NCBI GenBank assembly: GCA_031274925.1
Contig: JAISPL010000005.1
Span: 1-47,500 of the forward strand
Direction of reading: 5' to 3'
DNA length: 47,500 nucleotides
From: Syntrophobacterales bacterium
GTDB taxonomy: Bacteria > Desulfobacterota > Syntrophorhabdia > Syntrophorhabdales > Syntrophorhabdaceae
Under the pieces are notes generated by a model. It did no database searches. It saw only the letters and a program-made list of their open reading frames with translations, and was not told the DNA's origin. The position numbers and the translations under genes are program-made. Positions 33,794-46,304 of the stretch are shown here, one piece after another. The stretch's first letter is position 1; every line of letters starts with the position of its first letter.

Positions 33794-34825
33794 ATGAAGG
33801 TATCAGCTTGGATAGGCCGATGTTTCGTTGCAGCATTGCTTTTAGTCGTTTTTCTGGTGCCGTCCCGGAGTATAGCCGCAGAAAAAGTAATTACATTGAA
33901 GGTGTCCAACTGGTTTCCGATTACCCATAAGCAGAGTATCCTTCTTGATGAGTGGGGGAAAGAAGTAGAGAAGAAGACCAACGGCAAGTTGAAGGTCAAC
34001 TATTATCCAGCAGGCACTCTTGTGCCAACTGCTCAGAGCTATGATGCAGTGACTAAAGGAATTACCGATGTGGGCAACCATGTGCTTGGATATACAGTGG
34101 GGAAGTTCCCTCTCACTGAAATTGTTGACCTCCCCCTCGGATACCCGAACAATACAGTCCCGACAAGACTCGCGAACGCTTTCTACAACAAATTTAAACC
34201 AAAAGAGTTCGATGAAGTGAAGATTCTCTGGTTCCACGCTCAAGCCCCTGGAATAGTCCACACGAAAGATAAATCGGTGACGAAGCTGGAGGATTTGAAA
34301 GGCTTGAAGATGAGGACTTACGGATCGAATGCGCAATTCATGGGACTTCTCGGCGGGACGCCGGTCGCAATGCCTATGACAGATGTATATGATGCCCTGT
34401 CAAGGGGTGTTGCCGATGGCCTGATGTGCCCATACGAGGCGCTGGAAGGATTTAGGATCGGAGAACAGGTGAAATACCATATTGAGAACTATGACACCTC
34501 CTACAGCGCCACTTTTGTAGTCGCCATGAACAAGAAGAAATGGAATTCCCTTCCCCCTGATGTTCAGAAAGTGATCGATGAAATGAGTGTTGAATATATT
34601 GAGAAATTTGCCGCCATGTGGGACGAGATTCAAAAGAGTGGGAAGGAGTATTGCATCAAGAGAGGGAGCAAGGTCATTACCCTTGACAAAGCCGAACAAG
34701 CCAAGTGGGTGGCCAAGGCGGAGCCCCTGTTTGAAGATTATGCGAAGAGAATGAAGGCGAAGGGACTACCTGGCGACGAAGCATTGAAATTCGTACGTGA
34801 CTATTTGAAACCATACAAAAAATAG
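33794..34825 (+). CDS. TRAP transporter solute-binding protein (DctP family)
   Basis: 343 residues, periplasmic. Signal peptide (MKVSAWIGRCF then a hydrophobic core, cleavage near residue 29 after SIAA), then a DctP domain with KSVTKLEDLKGLKMR and DVYDALSRGVADG. Feeds the DctQM subunits encoded next. Paralogous to the orphan at 3141. Ligand likely an organic acid, by family. GGGAGG precedes the ATG. Confidence 0.93.
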   Translation: MKVSAWIGRCFVAALLLVVFLVPSRSIAAEKVITLKVSNWFPITHKQSILLDEWGKEVEKKTNGKLKVNYYPAGTLVPTAQSYDAVTKGITDVGNHVLGYTVGKFPLTEIVDLPLGYPNNTVPTRLANAFYNKFKPKEFDEVKILWFHAQAPGIVHTKDKSVTKLEDLKGLKMRTYGSNAQFMGLLGGTPVAMPMTDVYDALSRGVADGLMCPYEALEGFRIGEQVKYHIENYDTSYSATFVVAMNKKKWNSLPPDVQKVIDEMSVEYIEKFAAMWDEIQKSGKEYCIKRGSKVITLDKAEQAKWVAKAEPLFEDYAKRMKAKGLPGDEALKFVRDYLKPYKK

Positions 34826-34868
34826 TGAGAGATATCGTATCCATTCGAATTTTAAAGGAGAAGAAGGA

Positions 34869-35354
34869 ATGCAGATATTTCACGCGATGGTTTTGAGAGT
34901 AAGTAAAGTGATGGATGTGATCGGAGGGGCCATCCTGACGCTCATGATGCTGATTACTGTGCTGGATGTGGTCTTGCGTTTCCTTAAAAAGCCCATTACG
35001 GGTACGTACGAACTGGTGTTTCTGGGGGGTGCCGTGGTCATTGGGTGTGCGATTCCGGTGACATCATTGGAGGGAGGGCATGTGTGTGTGGATTTCCTGC
35101 TGGAGCATTTTTCGGCAGGAATCAGAAAGGGCTTCATTCTTTTCACGAGGATACTGGGTATGGCATTCTTTTTTTTGCTGGGAAGCAATCTTTTCCTGCT
35201 GGGTACTGATCTTTATAAATCAGGCGAGGTTTCACTCACCCTGCATGTGCCTTATTATCCCGCCGCCTATCTTCTGGCTCTCTGTGCATTCGTGGAGTGC
35301 CTTGTACTCCTTTCGTCGTTCATAAAGACCATATCTGGGGGAGATCATGAATGA
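34869..35354 (+). CDS. TRAP transporter small membrane subunit (DctQ family)
   Basis: 161 residues with four hydrophobic spans, the usual DctQ layout (first about 15-40, then GTYELVFLGGAVVIGCAIP, a span near 95-120, and one near 130-155). It bridges the binding protein and DctM. Strong AAGGAG ribosome site. Overlaps dctM by 8 nt. Confidence 0.9.
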   Translation: MQIFHAMVLRVSKVMDVIGGAILTLMMLITVLDVVLRFLKKPITGTYELVFLGGAVVIGCAIPVTSLEGGHVCVDFLLEHFSAGIRKGFILFTRILGMAFFFLLGSNLFLLGTDLYKSGEVSLTLHVPYYPAAYLLALCAFVECLVLLSSFIKTISGGDHE

Positions 35355-36648
35355 GACTATCGTAGGGGTCATCGCACTCTGCCTGTTGCTAGGATTCTTC
35401 CTCACTGGTATAGAGTTGGCCTTTGCCATGGGTATTATCGGGGTGGCAGGATTTGCTTATCTCGTGGATGTACCGGCAGCCATGGGACTGATGGCCAACG
35501 ATTTTTTTGATACAGTTGCAAACTACGGGCTCACAGTTGTTCCACTTTTCGTGCTTATGGGGCAGATCGCATTCAACGCAGGCATTGCGAAACGTTTATA
35601 CGATTGCGCTCACAGGTTCCTCGGCCATATTCCTGGGGGTTTGGCTATAGCGACAGTCGCTGGGGCGACGGCATTCAAAGCCATATGCGGATCGGTTGCG
35701 GCAACATCAGCGACTTTTGCGAGCGTCGCTGTGCCCGAAATGACAAAATTCGGGTACAGCAAGAAGTTGTCTACCGGTATTGTCGCCATAGTCGGCACCC
35801 TCGGATGTCTTATCCCTCCGAGCGTGGTGTTGATTATATTCGGCATCGTCACACAGCAGTCTATAGGCAGGTTGTTTCTGGCTGGTATTATTCCGGGACT
35901 ACTTATCGCGTTCTTCTTTGTGATTGTTATCTTCGGGTGGTGCAAAATAGACCCTGCCCTCGGACCGAAAAGCGAGAAGTATGCGTGGGCAGACAGGTGG
36001 AAAACAGTCCCTGATGTAGTGTGGCCTGTGGTGATTTTTTTTGTCATTATTGCGGGCATGATGAAGGGAATCTTTACACCCACGGAAGCGGGCAGCATCG
36101 GGGCTTTCGCCGTGCTGGTACTGTGTATTGCCAAGCGGAACATGAATTTCAAAGGATACGTGAAATCGGTGAAGGAATCCCTGAGAACCGCATGTATGGT
36201 GTTGTTGTTGGTCGCCACATCCAGCATGCTGGGACATTTCATTGCCGTGACCAATATGCCTAACCATCTCGGTCAATGGGTCCTGAGCCTCACGTTACCG
36301 TCATATATCATTGCATGCATGATTCTTCTCATCTATCTTGTCGGCGGTTCGTTTATTGACGATCTGGCATTTATGATTCTTGCAACGCCGATATTTTTTC
36401 CCATAATTACCAAGCTTGGGTACGATCCTCTCTGGGCAGGTATAATGGTAGCCCTTACCGTGTGTATAGGATCGGTTGTTCCCCCTGTGGCGATATGCGT
36501 CTTCATAGTCAGAAACATCACGAAAGTACCGATGGGTGTGATCTATTCGGGTGTCTATCCCTTTCTCATTTCACTTGTTCTTGTAGTCGTACTCTGTTTT
36601 TTGTTTCCCCAGATCGTCCTGTTTCTGCCGAATCAGCTCATGAAATAG
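35347..36648 (+). CDS. TRAP transporter large permease subunit (DctM family)
   Basis: 433 residues, about 12 hydrophobic segments. The DctM motifs GSVAATSATFASVAVPEM, GYSKKLSTGIVAIVGTLG, LIPPSVVLIIFG and FTPTEAGSIGAF are present. Sodium-driven import of the bound solute across the inner membrane. Completes the operon with the DctP and DctQ genes. The acyl-CoA ligase begins 133 bp downstream and probably activates the imported acid. Confidence 0.95.
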   Translation: MNETIVGVIALCLLLGFFLTGIELAFAMGIIGVAGFAYLVDVPAAMGLMANDFFDTVANYGLTVVPLFVLMGQIAFNAGIAKRLYDCAHRFLGHIPGGLAIATVAGATAFKAICGSVAATSATFASVAVPEMTKFGYSKKLSTGIVAIVGTLGCLIPPSVVLIIFGIVTQQSIGRLFLAGIIPGLLIAFFFVIVIFGWCKIDPALGPKSEKYAWADRWKTVPDVVWPVVIFFVIIAGMMKGIFTPTEAGSIGAFAVLVLCIAKRNMNFKGYVKSVKESLRTACMVLLLVATSSMLGHFIAVTNMPNHLGQWVLSLTLPSYIIACMILLIYLVGGSFIDDLAFMILATPIFFPIITKLGYDPLWAGIMVALTVCIGSVVPPVAICVFIVRNITKVPMGVIYSGVYPFLISLVLVVVLCFLFPQIVLFLPNQLMK

Positions 36649-39984: not shown

Positions 39985-41751
39985 ATGGCATTGCCGATTA
40001 TACTCAGCAAAGGAAAATTTACCGCTCAGTTCCGAAGGCGGTTTTTCTCGTACTGTGAGAATATAAATGCAGGGGATTATCCGTTGACCAGATGGAAGCA
40101 GTGGACGGATAATCCGGCCATCGTTATATTTCGAGCCGTCCGGGACGGAAAGACGGCCGGTTGGATCGCCTACGACAAAAGTAGAAGCAGAGTTCAGGAA
40201 ATCTGTATTGACGGAAGAGGCAGCATGCCTGAGCTCTGGACGGCGATGATGGATGCCCTTATCGTTCGTGAGAATTTGATTGCATTCGAGCTGCTGGCCG
40301 ACGATGCGGGCAAATATAACTGGGCTGTGGAATATGGTTTCCGACCCACTCATACATTCAAGATGAACGGCGGCATCCCTCTTGTCCAGATGGATTTGAG
40401 TTGGGCGATACTTCGCGAGAAGCTGGATGGGCTCCAGCCCGCAGCGGCTTACAGGACGAAAGAGAAGGTGGCTATCGAGAGGGTGCCTGAAACCAGTACC
40501 AATGAAGAGGTCAAAACAGGGCTTCGACGCCTGATACGTAAACTGGGTGGGCTGAAGCGATTTGTAAAGCCGGGCCAGACCGTGGTTATAAAGCCGAATG
40601 TGGTGAGCGACCATGGATTGAAGGATGGCGAATATAAGGGCGGTATCATCACAGACATAAGGGTGGTGAGGGCCTTGACGGAGATCCTTCTCCCTGTCGC
40701 TGCAAGAGTAATCATTGCCGAAGGGTCTTCAATAAACCGGAGCGAAACCTCCAAAATGTTCGCACATTACGGCTATGACAGGCTGGCGGACATGGATAGA
40801 AAAAAAGTGAGCCTTGTAGACCTTAATAAGGATGATACGACAGAGAAAACGATTCTCGGTGGAAAGCGGATGGTTTCCAGAAAGATCCCCCTTACCCTTG
40901 AAAGGGCGGATGTCATCATCAGCGTACCGGTCCTCAAGATACATTTTGCGGCTGTGGCCTCCCTGAGCATCAAACATCTCCAAGGCGCCGTGCCTCCTCT
41001 TGAAAAGTACATGACACACTTTTTTGGACTCTGGCAGAATCTGGTAAACATTCATCACGTGATCAAGCCTAAACTGACAATTATAGATGGGCTTACCGGT
41101 CAGGAGGATTTTGGACCTGTGTCTGGGGTACCGAAGGAAATGGGCCTTCTTATCGGAGGAACAAATCCAGTGGCCGTCGATTCCGTTGCCATGAAGATTA
41201 TGGGACTTGATCCTCTTGCTTCCCCGCCTGTGTGGCTGGCCTATATGCAGGGTATGGGGCCTGTTGAAGAAAATATGATCACAGTCGTTGGTCCAGGGAT
41301 TGAAGAGGTAATGAGTCCCTTCAGACAGCCCGCCATTGACCTTACGGGAGGCAGGGATATCACGATCCATGCCGATCGTGCTTGCCCTGGCTGCAAAGGG
41401 TATCTTCATTTTGTGCTGAGCAAGCTAAGGCGACCTGACCCCAAGGACCCGAGTCGGCTGCTCATTGACCGGCCATTCAATAAAAGGGTAAATATTTTTC
41501 TCGGACCTGCTGGAGATGGTATGGCAAGACCGGAAGAGAATAATGAGAATAATGTCTTTATGGGCATCTGCCAGCAGCATTATGAATGGGCTGGTACTCA
41601 TCTCCCAGGCTGTCCTCCTCATGCAGAGGTTATCATGAACGGTATATTCGAATTGTTTCCAGACGTTGAGAGGCCTCAGTATGCGGACAAGACCGAGGAG
41701 GCGAAACTGAGCGAAATGTTGAGGGAAGTTCTGAGCATGGACAGGGCCTGA
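39985..41751 (+). CDS. GNAT-like/DUF362 fusion protein
   Basis: 588 residues. The N-terminal 150 or so resemble a GNAT acetyltransferase-type fold (GKTAGWIAYDKS, then ELLADDAGKYNWAVEYGFRP). From about 160 to 440 it is a DUF362 domain (VKPGQTVVIKPNVV, GSSINRSETSKMFAHYGY, SVPVLKIHFAAVASLSIKH). The remaining tail has cysteines in ACPGCKGYL, GICQQH and PGCPPHAE, possibly metal ligands. DUF362 proteins are of unknown biochemistry. The gene ends 1 nt before the endonuclease Q start, so it is in one operon with DNA-repair-like genes; the reason for this is not known. Confidence 0.8.
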   Translation: MALPIILSKGKFTAQFRRRFFSYCENINAGDYPLTRWKQWTDNPAIVIFRAVRDGKTAGWIAYDKSRSRVQEICIDGRGSMPELWTAMMDALIVRENLIAFELLADDAGKYNWAVEYGFRPTHTFKMNGGIPLVQMDLSWAILREKLDGLQPAAAYRTKEKVAIERVPETSTNEEVKTGLRRLIRKLGGLKRFVKPGQTVVIKPNVVSDHGLKDGEYKGGIITDIRVVRALTEILLPVAARVIIAEGSSINRSETSKMFAHYGYDRLADMDRKKVSLVDLNKDDTTEKTILGGKRMVSRKIPLTLERADVIISVPVLKIHFAAVASLSIKHLQGAVPPLEKYMTHFFGLWQNLVNIHHVIKPKLTIIDGLTGQEDFGPVSGVPKEMGLLIGGTNPVAVDSVAMKIMGLDPLASPPVWLAYMQGMGPVEENMITVVGPGIEEVMSPFRQPAIDLTGGRDITIHADRACPGCKGYLHFVLSKLRRPDPKDPSRLLIDRPFNKRVNIFLGPAGDGMARPEENNENNVFMGICQQHYEWAGTHLPGCPPHAEVIMNGIFELFPDVERPQYADKTEEAKLSEMLREVLSMDRA

Positions 41752-41752
41752 C

Positions 41753-43030
41753 ATGCGGTTCATCGCGGATCTCCACATTCATTCCAAATACTCCAGAGCC
41801 ACAAGCTCGGCTATGGAGCCGGAGGGCTTGTGGAGATGGGCTCAGCTCAAGGGGATAACCGTAATGGGCACGGGCGATTTTACTCACCCGAAGTGGTTTA
41901 TGGAACTGACCGATAAACTTGAACCCGTAGGGAACGGGTTGTTTACGCTAAAGAAGGAGATGCGCCCAGGGGGTGTTCCGGAGTCGTGTAAAAGAGAGCC
42001 TTTCTTTCTTCTCTCGGTGGAGATTAGTTGTATTTACAGCAAGAATGGAAAGACCCGAAAAGTACACTGCATTGTTTTTGCTCCTGATCTTGCCGTTGCC
42101 GCGAGGATAAACCTTGCCTTGTCGAAGATTGGCAATATCGGCTCGGATGGGAGACCAATTCTCGGGCTTGATGCAAAGGATCTCCTTAAGCTTACCCTTG
42201 ATGCTTCACCAGAGGCCATGCTTATCCCCGCTCACATATGGACTCCCCATTTCTCCGTTTTTGGCGCGGCGTCAGGCTTTGATTCCCTGGTTGAGTGCTT
42301 TGAGGAGCTTACCCCTCATATCAGGGCCGTGGAAACAGGCCTTTCTTCGGACCCGCCAATGAACTGGCGTCTGTCGGCCCTTGACGGAATCACGCTTGTA
42401 TCAAATTCCGATGCCCATTCACCGCAAAAGATTGGCAGAGAAGCGAATATCTTTGACACGGAAGAAATATCATACAAGGCGATTACTGCGGCGATTGCGG
42501 ATGGAAAAGGTTTCTCTGGGACAATTGAGTTCTTTCCTGAGGAAGGGAAGTATCACTACGATGGCCACAGGACATGCGGAATCAGTCTTTCACCAGAGGA
42601 AACGATCCGTTACGGCTATCGTTGTCCGGTATGCGCCAAACGCGTAACTGTGGGTGTGATGCACAGGGTCCAGGCGCTTGCAGAAAGGGAAGCAGGCTTC
42701 ATACCGTCGACCGCCACCCGCTATTACTCCGCAATCCCACTCCCGGAGGTTCTTTCAGAGGCCATGAAAGTTGGTGCGGGCAGTAAGACAGTGATGGCTG
42801 AATATCTGAAGCTCCTGTCAAAACTGGGAAATGAATTTAAGATACTTCTTGATACCCCTTTGGAAGAGATAGAGCAGGTCGGCAGTGCGCCTCTTGTCGC
42901 GGAGGCAATTGCGAGGATGCGCACCGGAGCTGTGCATATCAAGCCCGGATACGACGGAGAATACGGGAAAATCAAGATATTCGAAGAATTTGAGCGCAGG
43001 GAAATGAAAGGGCAGATGCCTTTGCTCTGA
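41753..43030 (+). CDS. Endonuclease Q family protein (PHP domain)
   Basis: 425 residues, TIGR00375/EndoQ family. The N-terminal PHP domain starts ADLHIHSKYSRAT, with TGDFTHPKW, HIWTPHFSVFGA and SNSDAHSP as further metal motifs. A Cys set (Cys275, Cys291 and Cys294, in CGIS and CPVC) fits the zinc site known in EndoQ. The C-terminal region has helix-hairpin-type residues. EndoQ nicks DNA 5' to deaminated bases and other lesions and is best known in archaea, with scattered bacterial homologues. A repair role is likely; the helicase gene follows by 66 bp. Confidence 0.85.
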   Translation: MRFIADLHIHSKYSRATSSAMEPEGLWRWAQLKGITVMGTGDFTHPKWFMELTDKLEPVGNGLFTLKKEMRPGGVPESCKREPFFLLSVEISCIYSKNGKTRKVHCIVFAPDLAVAARINLALSKIGNIGSDGRPILGLDAKDLLKLTLDASPEAMLIPAHIWTPHFSVFGAASGFDSLVECFEELTPHIRAVETGLSSDPPMNWRLSALDGITLVSNSDAHSPQKIGREANIFDTEEISYKAITAAIADGKGFSGTIEFFPEEGKYHYDGHRTCGISLSPEETIRYGYRCPVCAKRVTVGVMHRVQALAEREAGFIPSTATRYYSAIPLPEVLSEAMKVGAGSKTVMAEYLKLLSKLGNEFKILLDTPLEEIEQVGSAPLVAEAIARMRTGAVHIKPGYDGEYGKIKIFEEFERREMKGQMPLL

Positions 43031-43096
43031 AAAAACTTCCATAATGTAATTGAACGACAATCAACGGCCCGCTGAATCGGAGCGGATGATGAGAAT

Positions 43097-44794
43097 ATGT
43101 CCCGTTTACTCGAAGGCTTGAACGAAGAACAGAGGCAGGCGGCAATCACTATATCGGGTCCCGTACTTGTATCGGCAGGACCTGGCACAGGCAAGACCCT
43201 TACCATCGTTCGGAGAATCGCATATCTCGTTGATCATGGCGTAAGGCCGGAGGAGATCATTGCGGTAACGTTCACGAACAGGGCGGCACGGGAGATGCGG
43301 GAGAGGGTAGACGAGTTTATGGGAAGCCGCGCATCGGGCATGTTCATAGGGACGTTTCACCTTCTCGGCCTCAGGATAATAAAGGAGAACTTGAAGAACG
43401 GCATGGCAGTATGCGACAGGCGGCGACAGATTGATATTCTTGAACCGCTTTCAGGCGGTCGCAGAAGAGCGGAACAGATGGCCGAGGCAATATCGAGGAT
43501 CAAGAGTCTCATGGAAGAGCCGCAGGATATGGAAGTAAGCAAGCTCTGTAAGGCCTATGATGATGAATTGAGGAGACAGAGCTTGTATGACTTCGATGAC
43601 CTGATACGCATTCCTTTGGCCATCCTGGATGACGAAGCCGTGGCTGCTCAATACAAAAAAGTGTTCCGATATGTGATGGTAGATGAGTACCAGGACATCA
43701 ATCAGGCGCAGCATAGACTTACGCGACGCCTTACAGACGGTGATAGTAATATCTGCGCTGTGGGTGACCCTGACCAAGCGATTTATGCCTTCAGGGGAGC
43801 TGATATGAAGAATTTCCTCAATTTTGAGACAGACTTTCCGGGAGCTTCAATGATCACGCTCACCAGGAACTATCGCTCATCCAAGACCATTCTCGACGCG
43901 GCGTCGGGGGTAATACGGCACAATAGAGAGAGACCGGCCAAAAACATTGAGGCAATAAGGGCAAGAGGAATGGAGATTACGGTTATATCCGCCCCCGACG
44001 AGAGGAGGGAGGCCGAAATAATCGTGAAAGAAATCGAATCAAGAATGGGCGGGACAAGCCATTACGATCTCATGAAGAGAACGGATGATTTCGATTGCTC
44101 GGATGGCTCCTGCGGATTCCTTGATTTTGCCGTGATATTCAGGACTAATTCGCAAGTCAAAGTTTTAGAGGAGGCTTTTTTTGAGTCCGGGATGCCATAC
44201 CGGGTAGTGCGAGGTGAAGCTTCGGCAGGGATAAAGCAAGTTGCCGAGGCGCTGAAGGAACGGGCTGACGAGAGTTTATCTGTCTTGGACATTCACGATT
44301 TTGTTATAGCTTTGTGTGAGGAAAAGGATGTAACAGAAGATGACCTGGCCTTCCTTTGCCAGATTACTTACGCATATGGCAGTCTCCCCGCGAGCGAAGC
44401 CATCGACGCGGTTTTGAATGAACTGGTTCTTCTTTCTACAGGAGACGGATATGACTCCAGGGCTCAAGCTATAACCCTTATGACCATGCATGCCGCAAAA
44501 GGCCTGGAGTTCAAGGTTGTCTTTATCGCAGGCGTGGAGGATGGGCTCATTCCATTTGGAATTGTGGCGGAAAAGACAGAGATAGAGGAAGAACGCAGGC
44601 TCTTCTATGTCGGCATGACACGAGCAAAAGACGAGCTTCTCCTTACACGTGCGCGGAGCCGCTTCCTGCGGGGCCGTCGCAATGTCTCGCGGCCATCTCC
44701 TTTCCTTCTTGAAATTCCAAAAGAATTTATAAAGGAGAGAGTCGTGGAAGACAAGAGGTTGGCCCAGAAACAAAGACAAATGAAGCTATTTTGA
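43097..44794 (+). CDS. UvrD/Rep-like superfamily 1A helicase
   Basis: 565 residues. All SF1A motifs are visible: I, AGPGTGKT at 27-34; Ia, VTFTNRAAREM; II, VDEYQD; III, GDPDQAIYAFRGAD; IV, RNYRSSKTIL; V, TMHAAKGLEFKVVF; VI, RRLFYVGMTRAK. It is about 150 residues shorter than UvrD or Rep, mainly in the 1B/2B inserts and the C-terminus, so it is a compact relative. 3'-5' unwinding is expected by family. It probably works with the endonuclease Q encoded just upstream. Confidence 0.92.
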   Translation: MSRLLEGLNEEQRQAAITISGPVLVSAGPGTGKTLTIVRRIAYLVDHGVRPEEIIAVTFTNRAAREMRERVDEFMGSRASGMFIGTFHLLGLRIIKENLKNGMAVCDRRRQIDILEPLSGGRRRAEQMAEAISRIKSLMEEPQDMEVSKLCKAYDDELRRQSLYDFDDLIRIPLAILDDEAVAAQYKKVFRYVMVDEYQDINQAQHRLTRRLTDGDSNICAVGDPDQAIYAFRGADMKNFLNFETDFPGASMITLTRNYRSSKTILDAASGVIRHNRERPAKNIEAIRARGMEITVISAPDERREAEIIVKEIESRMGGTSHYDLMKRTDDFDCSDGSCGFLDFAVIFRTNSQVKVLEEAFFESGMPYRVVRGEASAGIKQVAEALKERADESLSVLDIHDFVIALCEEKDVTEDDLAFLCQITYAYGSLPASEAIDAVLNELVLLSTGDGYDSRAQAITLMTMHAAKGLEFKVVFIAGVEDGLIPFGIVAEKTEIEEERRLFYVGMTRAKDELLLTRARSRFLRGRRNVSRPSPFLLEIPKEFIKERVVEDKRLAQKQRQMKLF

Positions 44795-44951: not shown

Positions 44952-46304
44952 ATGGGAAGCAATACACTGAAGGAATGGGACAAGCAATACGTTTGGCATC
45001 CCTTTACACAGATGCAGGAATACATGGAGACGGACCCTTTGGTGATTGAGCGGGGCGAAAGGTTTCATCTCATCGACTCAGAGGGGAAAAGATATATTGA
45101 CGGCGTCTCGTCGTTATGGGTTGTTGTTCACGGCCATGGCAAGAAAGAACTCTTGGATGTTATACGCGATCAATCGGAAAAGCTTTGCCATTCAACACTG
45201 CTCGGGCTTGCGAACGCCCCATCCGTGCTCCTTGCAAAAAAACTTGTCGAGATAACGCCCCGGGGACTTTCCAAAGTTTTCTATTCCGATAACGGGTCCA
45301 CATCGGTAGAAATCGCACTTAAAATGGCGTATCAGTACTGGCGGCAGCGGGGAGAAAAGAAAAGGAAAAGATTCGTCTGTTTTAGCAATGGTTACCATGG
45401 CGACACCGTAGGATCTGTCAGCGTGGGGGGGATAGATTTGTTTCATAAAATATACCGCCCGCTCCTGTTTAAAACTTTCAAATCTCCGTCGCCTTACTGC
45501 TACCGGTGTCCCCTCAAGCTTGCAAAGGAAAGTTGTGGCACGGCATGCATCGGAGAATTTGAGAAGATCGTAAAAAATCACAAGGACGAGATTTGCGCTG
45601 TTATAATTGAACCACTCGTTCAGGGTGCCGGAGGTATGATTGTGCAACCGGAGGGGTTCATTTCATCGGTCTCACAGATCACGAAAGAACATGGTATTTT
45701 TTTGATCACGGACGAAGTGGCTACCGGTTTTGGCCGGACGGGCAAGATGTTTGCTTGTGAAAAGGAGAATGTGCATCCGGATTTCCTTTGCGTGGCAAAG
45801 GGTATCACCGGCGGATATATGCCTCTCGCCGCAACATTGACAACAGACGAGGTGTTTCGTGGTTTTCTTAGCCGATTTGAAGATTTCAAGACTTTCTTTC
45901 ACGGACATACGTACACTGGCAATCCGCTGGCATGCAGTGTTGCGGTCCGAAATTTGGAGCTTTTTGAGGCCGAGAAGATTGTTGAAAATATGAAGCCAAA
46001 AATAGAGACACTCCGAAACGAACTTAAGAAGTTCGCCGACCTGCCTCATGTGGGAGATGTGCGACAGGAAGGGTTTATGGTGGGGATTGAGCTTGTAAAG
46101 AATCGAAAAACTAAAAAGCCCTATGTTCCTGGCGAAAATATGGGACACAAGGTGATTATGGAAGCAAGAAGCAGAGGCGCGGTCATAAGACCTCTCGGGG
46201 ATGTGATCGTGCTTATGCCTCCGCCCGCTATCGACGAAAATACGCTGGAGGAACTTGTGGCGATTACGTATGAAAGTATCAGGGCGGTGACGGAAAGATG
46301 CTGA
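44952..46304 (+). CDS. bioA: Adenosylmethionine-8-amino-7-oxononanoate aminotransferase
   Basis: 450 residues, class III PLP aminotransferase of biotin synthesis, converting KAPA to DAPA with S-adenosylmethionine as amino donor. Seen: [10 protein letters not shown] at the N-terminus, [58 protein letters not shown] and the PLP Lys in [13 protein letters not shown]. The WHPFTQM start is characteristic of BioA. AGGAGG lies just before the ATG. No other biotin genes are in the window. No BioR or BirA operator was recognised upstream. Confidence 0.93.

Follow-up and report, generated by a model that had tools for sequence, protein, structure and literature searches.

Here we describe a locus in a 47,500-nucleotide (nt) stretch of DNA, referred to below as the window, from a Syntrophobacterales bacterium of the phylum Desulfobacterota (GenBank assembly GCA_031274925.1, contig JAISPL010000005.1, positions 1 to 47,500 of the forward strand), in which a gene for endonuclease Q (EndoQ) is directly followed by a gene for a compact UvrD-like helicase. 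The assembly, of which the window represents contig 5, measures 2.06 Mb and is 97% complete. Three consecutive plus-strand open reading frames occupy positions 39985-41751 (588 amino acids, aa), 41753-43030 (425 aa), and 43097-44794 (565 aa), with spacings of 1 nt and 66 nt, in exact agreement with a first-pass annotation made from the sequence, which had also named their products as a GNAT-DUF362 fusion, EndoQ, and a UvrD-like helicase. The phmmer and Pfam matches agree with these identities, and the GNAT part is recognized by its predicted fold. The two genes of main interest and their features, all on the plus strand, are the following.

41753..43030, plus strand: EndoQ (endonuclease Q), 425 aa, matching PfuEndoQ (phmmer, E 1.2e-46), with conserved catalytic and zinc residues
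42407..42418, plus strand: EndoQ SDAH active-site motif, residues 219-222, equivalent of PfuEndoQ S191-H194
42566..42634, plus strand: EndoQ HxxC...CxxC zinc ribbon, residues H272, C275, C291, and C294
43013..43027, plus strand: EndoQ C-terminal QMPLL, a sliding-clamp-binding-like peptide, judged from C-terminus counts against controls
43097..44794, plus strand: compact UvrD/PcrA-like helicase of superfamily 1A (SF1A), 565 aa, assigned from Pfam, Protein Data Bank matches, AlphaFold2, and VIA-align
44156..44473, plus strand: shortened helicase 2B region, 106 aa from motif IV to motif V
44777..44791, plus strand: helicase C-terminal QMKLF, a sliding-clamp-binding-like peptide with conserved Q561, L564, and F565

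The window EndoQ aligns through residues 5-416 of 425 to PfuEndoQ (5zb8), and it matches the TIGR00375 model with a score below the cut-off of that model. For the alignment and tree of bacterial EndoQ proteins we retained 197 of 212 rows, dropping those that were shorter than 380 aa, contained stops, or were identical. The equivalents of Pfu E76, H84, H139, E167, and G169 are invariant in this set, and those of D6, H8, and H10 occur in 194 of the 197 proteins, the other three having gaps. In the SDAH motif (Pfu S191-D192-H194), the serine and aspartate are found in all 197 proteins, the histidine in 196, and the alanine in 184; the Pfu residues S191-H194 are named in PMC4357722. The window EndoQ thus has equivalents of all named catalytic residues, each of which is kept in 194-197 of the 197 relatives. 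The four-ligand zinc site is present as well (each ligand 197/197), with histidine as its first ligand in the bacterial proteins where the alignment has cysteine in Pfu. Judging from these residues, the window EndoQ is predicted to nick DNA 5' of a deaminated base. EndoQ is encoded in 132 of the 198 sampled genomes of the window's phylum (109 of the 158 of good quality), and the view of the first-pass annotation that the enzyme is mainly archaeal therefore understates the bacterial share. No EndoQ relatives were found among 72,556 plasmid and 50,697 phage records.

The adjacent helicase matches Pfam PF00580 (UvrD/REP; E 1.2e-67) and PF13361, and the solved structures nearest to it are PcrA and UvrD. 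Its AlphaFold2 model (predicted local distance difference test, pLDDT, 90.7) superimposes on Deinococcus radiodurans UvrD with a Z score of 50.0 and a root mean square deviation of 3.6 over 524 aligned residues (VIA-align). The Walker A, DExQD, and motif V residues are invariant across 42 aligned helicases, and the window protein scores far below the PcrA and UvrD equivalog cut-offs; it looks like a UvrD-family motor, not a canonical PcrA or UvrD.

What sets these helicases apart is their 2B region, whose size was gauged by proxy as the residue count from motif IV to motif V in one MAFFT alignment. This interval spans 187-204 residues in six PcrA controls, and 82 of 85 EndoQ-linked helicases are shorter than every one of them, 42 having 61-150 residues and 14 having 60 or fewer. 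With 106 residues, the window helicase lacks a full 2B regulatory subdomain. In 13 fusions, the entire 2B region is replaced by a 36-residue link; these belong to families f17 (loci L135, L138, L144, L145, L147, L154, and L206), f8 (L196 and L203), f52 (L153 and L169), and f7 (L207 and L208), and they come from two or more distinct clades of the EndoQ tree. According to a 2026 review, deletion of 2B activates Rep monomers, and MutL activates UvrD via 2B (PMC13238157).

The association of the two genes is recurrent. We classified EndoQ neighbourhoods at 132 loci of the phylum, namely that of the window and those of 131 other EndoQ-bearing genomes. There are 49 loci at which EndoQ and the helicase are fused in one frame and 8, including the window, at which the helicase gene is adjacent, downstream, and on the same strand; 63 loci have no such neighbour, 11 could not be assigned owing to a contig end, and at the one other locus (L238) the helicase comes directly after an EndoQ frame that is broken. 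Of the 55 families of the phylum, 29 show linkage and 22 have fusions. Beyond the phylum, we considered the best 80 of 578 confirmed named loci, a sample biased to window-like EndoQ that includes four duplicates of phylum loci; 20 of these 80 are fused, 15 adjacent, 1 has the helicase slightly farther away, 34 have none, and 10 could not be assigned. The fusions among these named loci include examples from Bacillota, Latescibacterota, KSB1, and Kapaibacterium, and the adjacent pairs include Nitrospirota, Peregrinibacteria, and Bacteroidetes. At non-fused loci, a UvrD-like gene occupies position +1 in 19 of 122 cases; the share drops to 4 of 299 for positions +2 to +4 and to 0 of 451 for the four positions upstream, so that the gene order is not explained by chance. 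The first-pass proposal of a bacterial EndoQ pathway depended on such a pairing recurring in other bacteria, and it does recur, the two genes standing side by side or being joined into one across several phyla and many families.

On the EndoQ tree (197 rows), the three linkage states need 16 changes, as compared with a mean of 71.8 when the states are shuffled, so that linkage has been passed down within large clades, having in places been split, lost, or formed anew. In a helicase tree of 103 rows, from which proteins that were incomplete or shorter than 450 aa had been skipped, six PcrA-type paralogues form one clade with a Shimodaira-Hasegawa-like approximate likelihood ratio test (SH-aLRT) support of 99. 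The EndoQ-linked helicases fall outside this clade, together with 12 unlinked relatives that had been chosen by their similarity to the window helicase and 10 of which carry a clamp-like terminus.

Such termini are the second feature that the two proteins have in common. The window EndoQ ends in QMPLL and the helicase in QMKLF, both being peptides of the QLxLF type that forms the consensus of beta-clamp-binding peptides (PMC4549789), and helicase residues Q561, L564, and F565 are each kept in 90% or more of the 42 helicases aligned. We searched the last 14 residues of each protein for a relaxed motif, Qxx[LMIF][FLYW], and a strict one, Q[LMI]x[LMI][FLY], excluding from the C-terminus counts the four duplicate loci and EndoQ rows with a partial-span match or a frame running off the contig, and removing helicases from the control set of unrelated neighbours (n = 1126). 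The relaxed motif is present in 21 of 22 adjacent helicases, 59 of 66 fusions, and 93 of 126 separate EndoQ proteins (17/21 with an adjacent helicase, 68/94 with none, 7/10 at unassigned loci, and 1/1 with a helicase nearby), as compared with 12 of the 1126 unrelated neighbours and none of the six PcrA controls, from which the window helicase is distinguished by this terminus. The strict motif gives 17/22, 55/66, and 46/126 for the same three groups and 2/1126 for the unrelated neighbours. Within the fusions, an inner motif just past the EndoQ core, located by alignment, is found in 52 of 66 proteins, as against 2/66 and 0/66 in the flanking windows, and 49 of the 66 have both the inner and the terminal motif. 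Shiraishi et al. 2016 (PMC4858679) already pointed out a clamp motif in bacterial EndoQ, and they showed that PCNA stimulates archaeal EndoQ, which contacts it through a PIP box at the C-terminus; PCNA binding and a C-terminal PIP box are likewise reported for Pab0431 (COG1379) of Pyrococcus abyssi (PMC3820547). The conserved termini suggest that EndoQ and the helicase would both bind the sliding clamp through their C-terminal peptides.

We consider it fairly probable that EndoQ and the UvrD-like helicase serve bacteria as an excision module that is tethered to the clamp and directed at deaminated (and abasic) bases. The pairing and fusion, the catalytic residues, the terminal motifs, and the reduction of 2B are seen directly, and from them we infer the nicking, the binding to the clamp, the unwinding, its direction, and the order of steps. 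The module, encoded as two genes in the window or as one fused polypeptide, would start with EndoQ nicking 5' of the damaged base. The C-terminal QxxLF-type peptides of both proteins would bind the beta sliding clamp, perhaps in two pockets of one clamp, and so gather nuclease and motor at one DNA site. The helicase, with its 2B autoinhibitory region cut back or gone, would then move from the nick along the intact strand in the 3' to 5' direction, peeling off the strand that has the lesion at its start, while a clamp-bound polymerase would refill from the 3'-OH and the flap would be removed by a 5' nuclease, for example RecJ or Pol I. Both DnaN and RecJ are present in the window's genome. UvrD-family helicases move 3' to 5'; for this reason, a helicase that loads at the nick onto the intact strand would peel away the lesion strand, and one that loads onto the nicked strand would leave the lesion behind. 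The product of EndoQ has a 3'-OH and a 5'-phosphate strand beginning with the lesion (PMC4357722), and in the model of Shiraishi et al. 2015 a helicase activity, given no name, carries out the removal once EndoQ and EndoV have made their incisions (PMC4357722, Fig. 10 legend). Removal of the nicked strand by the helicase, as the first-pass annotation proposed, is plausible and is now better motivated.

In mismatch repair, a nicking or activating protein, a UvrD helicase, and a sliding clamp work together. In that MutL-UvrD-beta-clamp system, MutL relieves the autoinhibition exerted by UvrD 2B (PMC13238157), whereas in the EndoQ-linked helicases 2B is genetically reduced, not rotated, and the nick proposed for the EndoQ module would be lesion-specific. 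The closest known system is the archaeal EndoQ with PCNA of the Thermococcales, which belongs to the same nuclease family and shares the conserved catalytic residues and a clamp-binding or clamp-binding-like peptide at the extreme C-terminus; there too, excision after a 5' nick has been proposed, with removal by a helicase in one model (PMC4357722, PMC4858679). Besides the difference in the first zinc ligand, the bacterial form has a bacterial clamp-type motif in place of the archaeal PIP box and a dedicated UvrD-like helicase, adjacent or fused. Nicking has been reported for a bacterial member of the family, Bacillus EndoQ (PMC6202378, PMC8307549), and the accessible parts of these two papers mention no helicase partner.

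Several observations weigh against the proposed module. A helicase beside EndoQ is absent at 63 of the 121 judgeable phylum loci, and in two of the five genomes of the window's family (G097 and G152) EndoQ is encoded with no close helicase match genome-wide (E<=1e-60); the helicase is therefore dispensable or optional in some genomes. Nor is the compact helicase type exclusive to EndoQ, since related compact helicases that lack the glutamine of the clamp motif lie beside AddA/AddB-like genes in genomes G024 and G062. EndoQ and helicase distances correlate (r 0.88 for 16 adjacent pairs and r 0.92 for 12 unlinked ones, 0/2000 permutations each), which speaks for the module, but this correlation is uncorrected for the species tree and can also be produced by shared species history. 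The six fusions of family f41 have lost the inner motif, and only three of them keep the terminal glutamine; in the window helicase, the predicted fold retains a small helical 2B remnant. Finally, uracil-DNA glycosylase (UDG) family proteins are encoded in 174 of the 198 genomes, that of the window included, and EndoQ is thus not the sole route for uracil there.

One alternative is that the helicase is a general clamp-bound accessory motor, acting in replication conflicts or recombination, with which EndoQ just happens to be co-encoded, so that the two would be separate clamp clients with no common reaction. The clamp-like termini carried independently by both proteins fit this account, as do the related helicases that are unlinked or lie beside AddA/AddB-like genes and the missing helicase neighbour at more than half of the judgeable EndoQ loci; yet fusion in 22 families of the phylum, in Bacillota, and in other phyla, along with the near-exclusive +1 position, is hard to explain without joint work, and we regard this account as unlikely, if one to be taken seriously. 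The two proteins might also work together in the opposite order, the helicase opening the duplex or clearing proteins to give EndoQ access near the fork. A clamp-tethered complex could work ahead of synthesis, and Rep-type helicases are reported to displace proteins (PMC6158625), but archaeal EndoQ alone handles both duplex and single-stranded DNA (PMC8307549), and protein displacement by Rep is tied to 2B (PMC6158625), the region that EndoQ-linked helicases shrink, so that we give this order very little weight.

An anti-phage function, in which EndoQ would nick uracil-rich or modified phage DNA and a GajB-like helicase would process the product, is likewise improbable in our judgement. The helicase does match the PADLOC models of GajB from the Gabija system (best E 1.1e-79), and a review reports that an antiviral role has been suggested for Bacillus EndoQ (PMC8307549). 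However, the GajB models describe generic UvrD helicases, and what the window helicase shares with GajB is the SF1A core and motifs that UvrD, PcrA, and Rep have as well. The GajA partner (OLD/TOPRIM) of Gabija was not found at the window locus, where the helicase is accompanied by DUF362, EndoQ, and BioA, and no PADLOC model matches the window EndoQ or DUF362 protein. The presence of EndoQ in most genomes of the phylum and its absence from the plasmid and phage records are unlike a mobile defence gene, the neighbouring gene clusters are not defence-like when judged by eye, and the clamp motifs suggest replication-linked work.

As to the place of the proposed EndoQ-helicase module among the repair genes of the phylum, EndoQ is generally an addition, given how widely UDG occurs. 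A role as a general replacement for UDG was ruled out, EndoQ being present in 9 of 24 UDG-lacking and 123 of 174 UDG-bearing genomes. Family f41 is the exception to the rule of UDG plus EndoQ; its six genomes (G040, G076, G109, G138, G165, and G190), each 100% complete, have no UDG-superfamily match (0/6), and all six carry the EndoQ-helicase fusion. EndoV was not recognisable in the window's genome and shows no association with EndoQ, being found in 56 of 132 EndoQ genomes and 35 of 66 others (Fisher p 0.18). We also rejected the idea that the compact helicase goes with EndoV, which near coordinates in G024 and G062 had brought up, because other genes intervene and the direct downstream neighbours are the AddA/AddB-like genes. 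In two genomes from the window's order (L285:1-6181 and L286:1-6262, both on the minus strand), a compact relative of the helicase is followed directly by a RecB/AddA-like helicase of ~1026 aa and a large AddB-like protein, and such an AddA/AddB-like locus is possibly another user of the compact helicase.

The first gene of the locus stands apart from this pair. Its product matches DUF362 (PF04015) at residues 200-403 (E 1e-37); the GNAT part is below the sequence threshold (PF13673, E 0.045), and the predicted fold of residues 1-162 (pLDDT 85.9) matches GNAT acetyltransferases (Foldseek best E 1.8e-6, probability 1.00, template modeling score ~0.45-0.6). The first-pass suggestion that this protein may be a partner of EndoQ did not hold up; a DUF362 homologue lies beside EndoQ at none of the best 80 of 578 named loci and none of the 131 other phylum loci, and, as it adjoins EndoQ in the window only, DUF362 was ruled out as a third member of the module. 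At loci L132 and L134, DUF362 matches of 27-28% occur more than 4 kb downstream of EndoQ, and at a family relative that has the pair (L114) no DUF362 was seen, genes -2 to -4 being oppositely oriented. GNAT-DUF362 relatives occur in 4 of 118 genomes, all from the window's order, and in the three besides the window's they are unlinked to EndoQ; a paralogue with 58% identity is encoded on another contig of the window's genome. The GNAT-DUF362 proteins, which share invariant cysteine motifs, are these.

39985..41751 of the window, plus strand: GNAT-like plus DUF362 protein, identified by Pfam and fold, a neighbour upstream of EndoQ only here, with no conserved linkage, and outside the module
L299:5217-6971: GNAT-DUF362 protein
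L300:3759-5594: GNAT-DUF362 protein
L301:4049-5800: GNAT-DUF362 protein
L302:4314-6059: GNAT-DUF362 protein

At L299 and L300, the gene lies beside redox-enzyme-like genes, as judged by eye. In the window, AGGAGG precedes the ATG of the GNAT-DUF362 gene, and EndoQ translation may be coupled to that gene, because the EndoQ start directly follows the DUF362 stop and has no clear ribosome site of its own. Downstream of the helicase, from position 44952, lies bioA, which encodes a biotin-synthesis aminotransferase (TIGR00508, above cut-off). Elsewhere in the window, a TRAP-type transporter trio of a binding protein and small and large membrane subunits was recognized by eye at 33794-36648, with an acyl-CoA-ligase-like gene downstream.

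Bacterial EndoQ has hardly been studied so far, and the fused proteins probably sit in databases as unremarked UvrD-domain proteins. In the literature searched, which was mostly non-subscription and does not establish priority, we found no paper on EndoQ with a dedicated or fused UvrD helicase; PMC8307549, where both names appear, mentions UvrD just in a table. In its boldest form, which we put forward tentatively and with considerable doubt, the proposal sees in EndoQ and the helicase an excision machine complete in itself and held at the clamp, in many cases one chain whose two clamp peptides would fill the two pockets of a single beta dimer; tethering would replace the 2B brake, which is cut back or, in several families, deleted (a natural counterpart of the 2B-less laboratory Rep), and in the UDG-lacking family f41 the machine might be the main defence against cytosine deamination. 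Families without UDG suit clean genetics. The repeated loss of 2B provides natural "brake-free" UvrD-family helicases of a kind otherwise obtained by engineering, and two clamp motifs on one chain point to a way of keeping such a motor in place. A dedicated helicase, often on the same chain, is a candidate for the missing motor that acts after the EndoQ nick.

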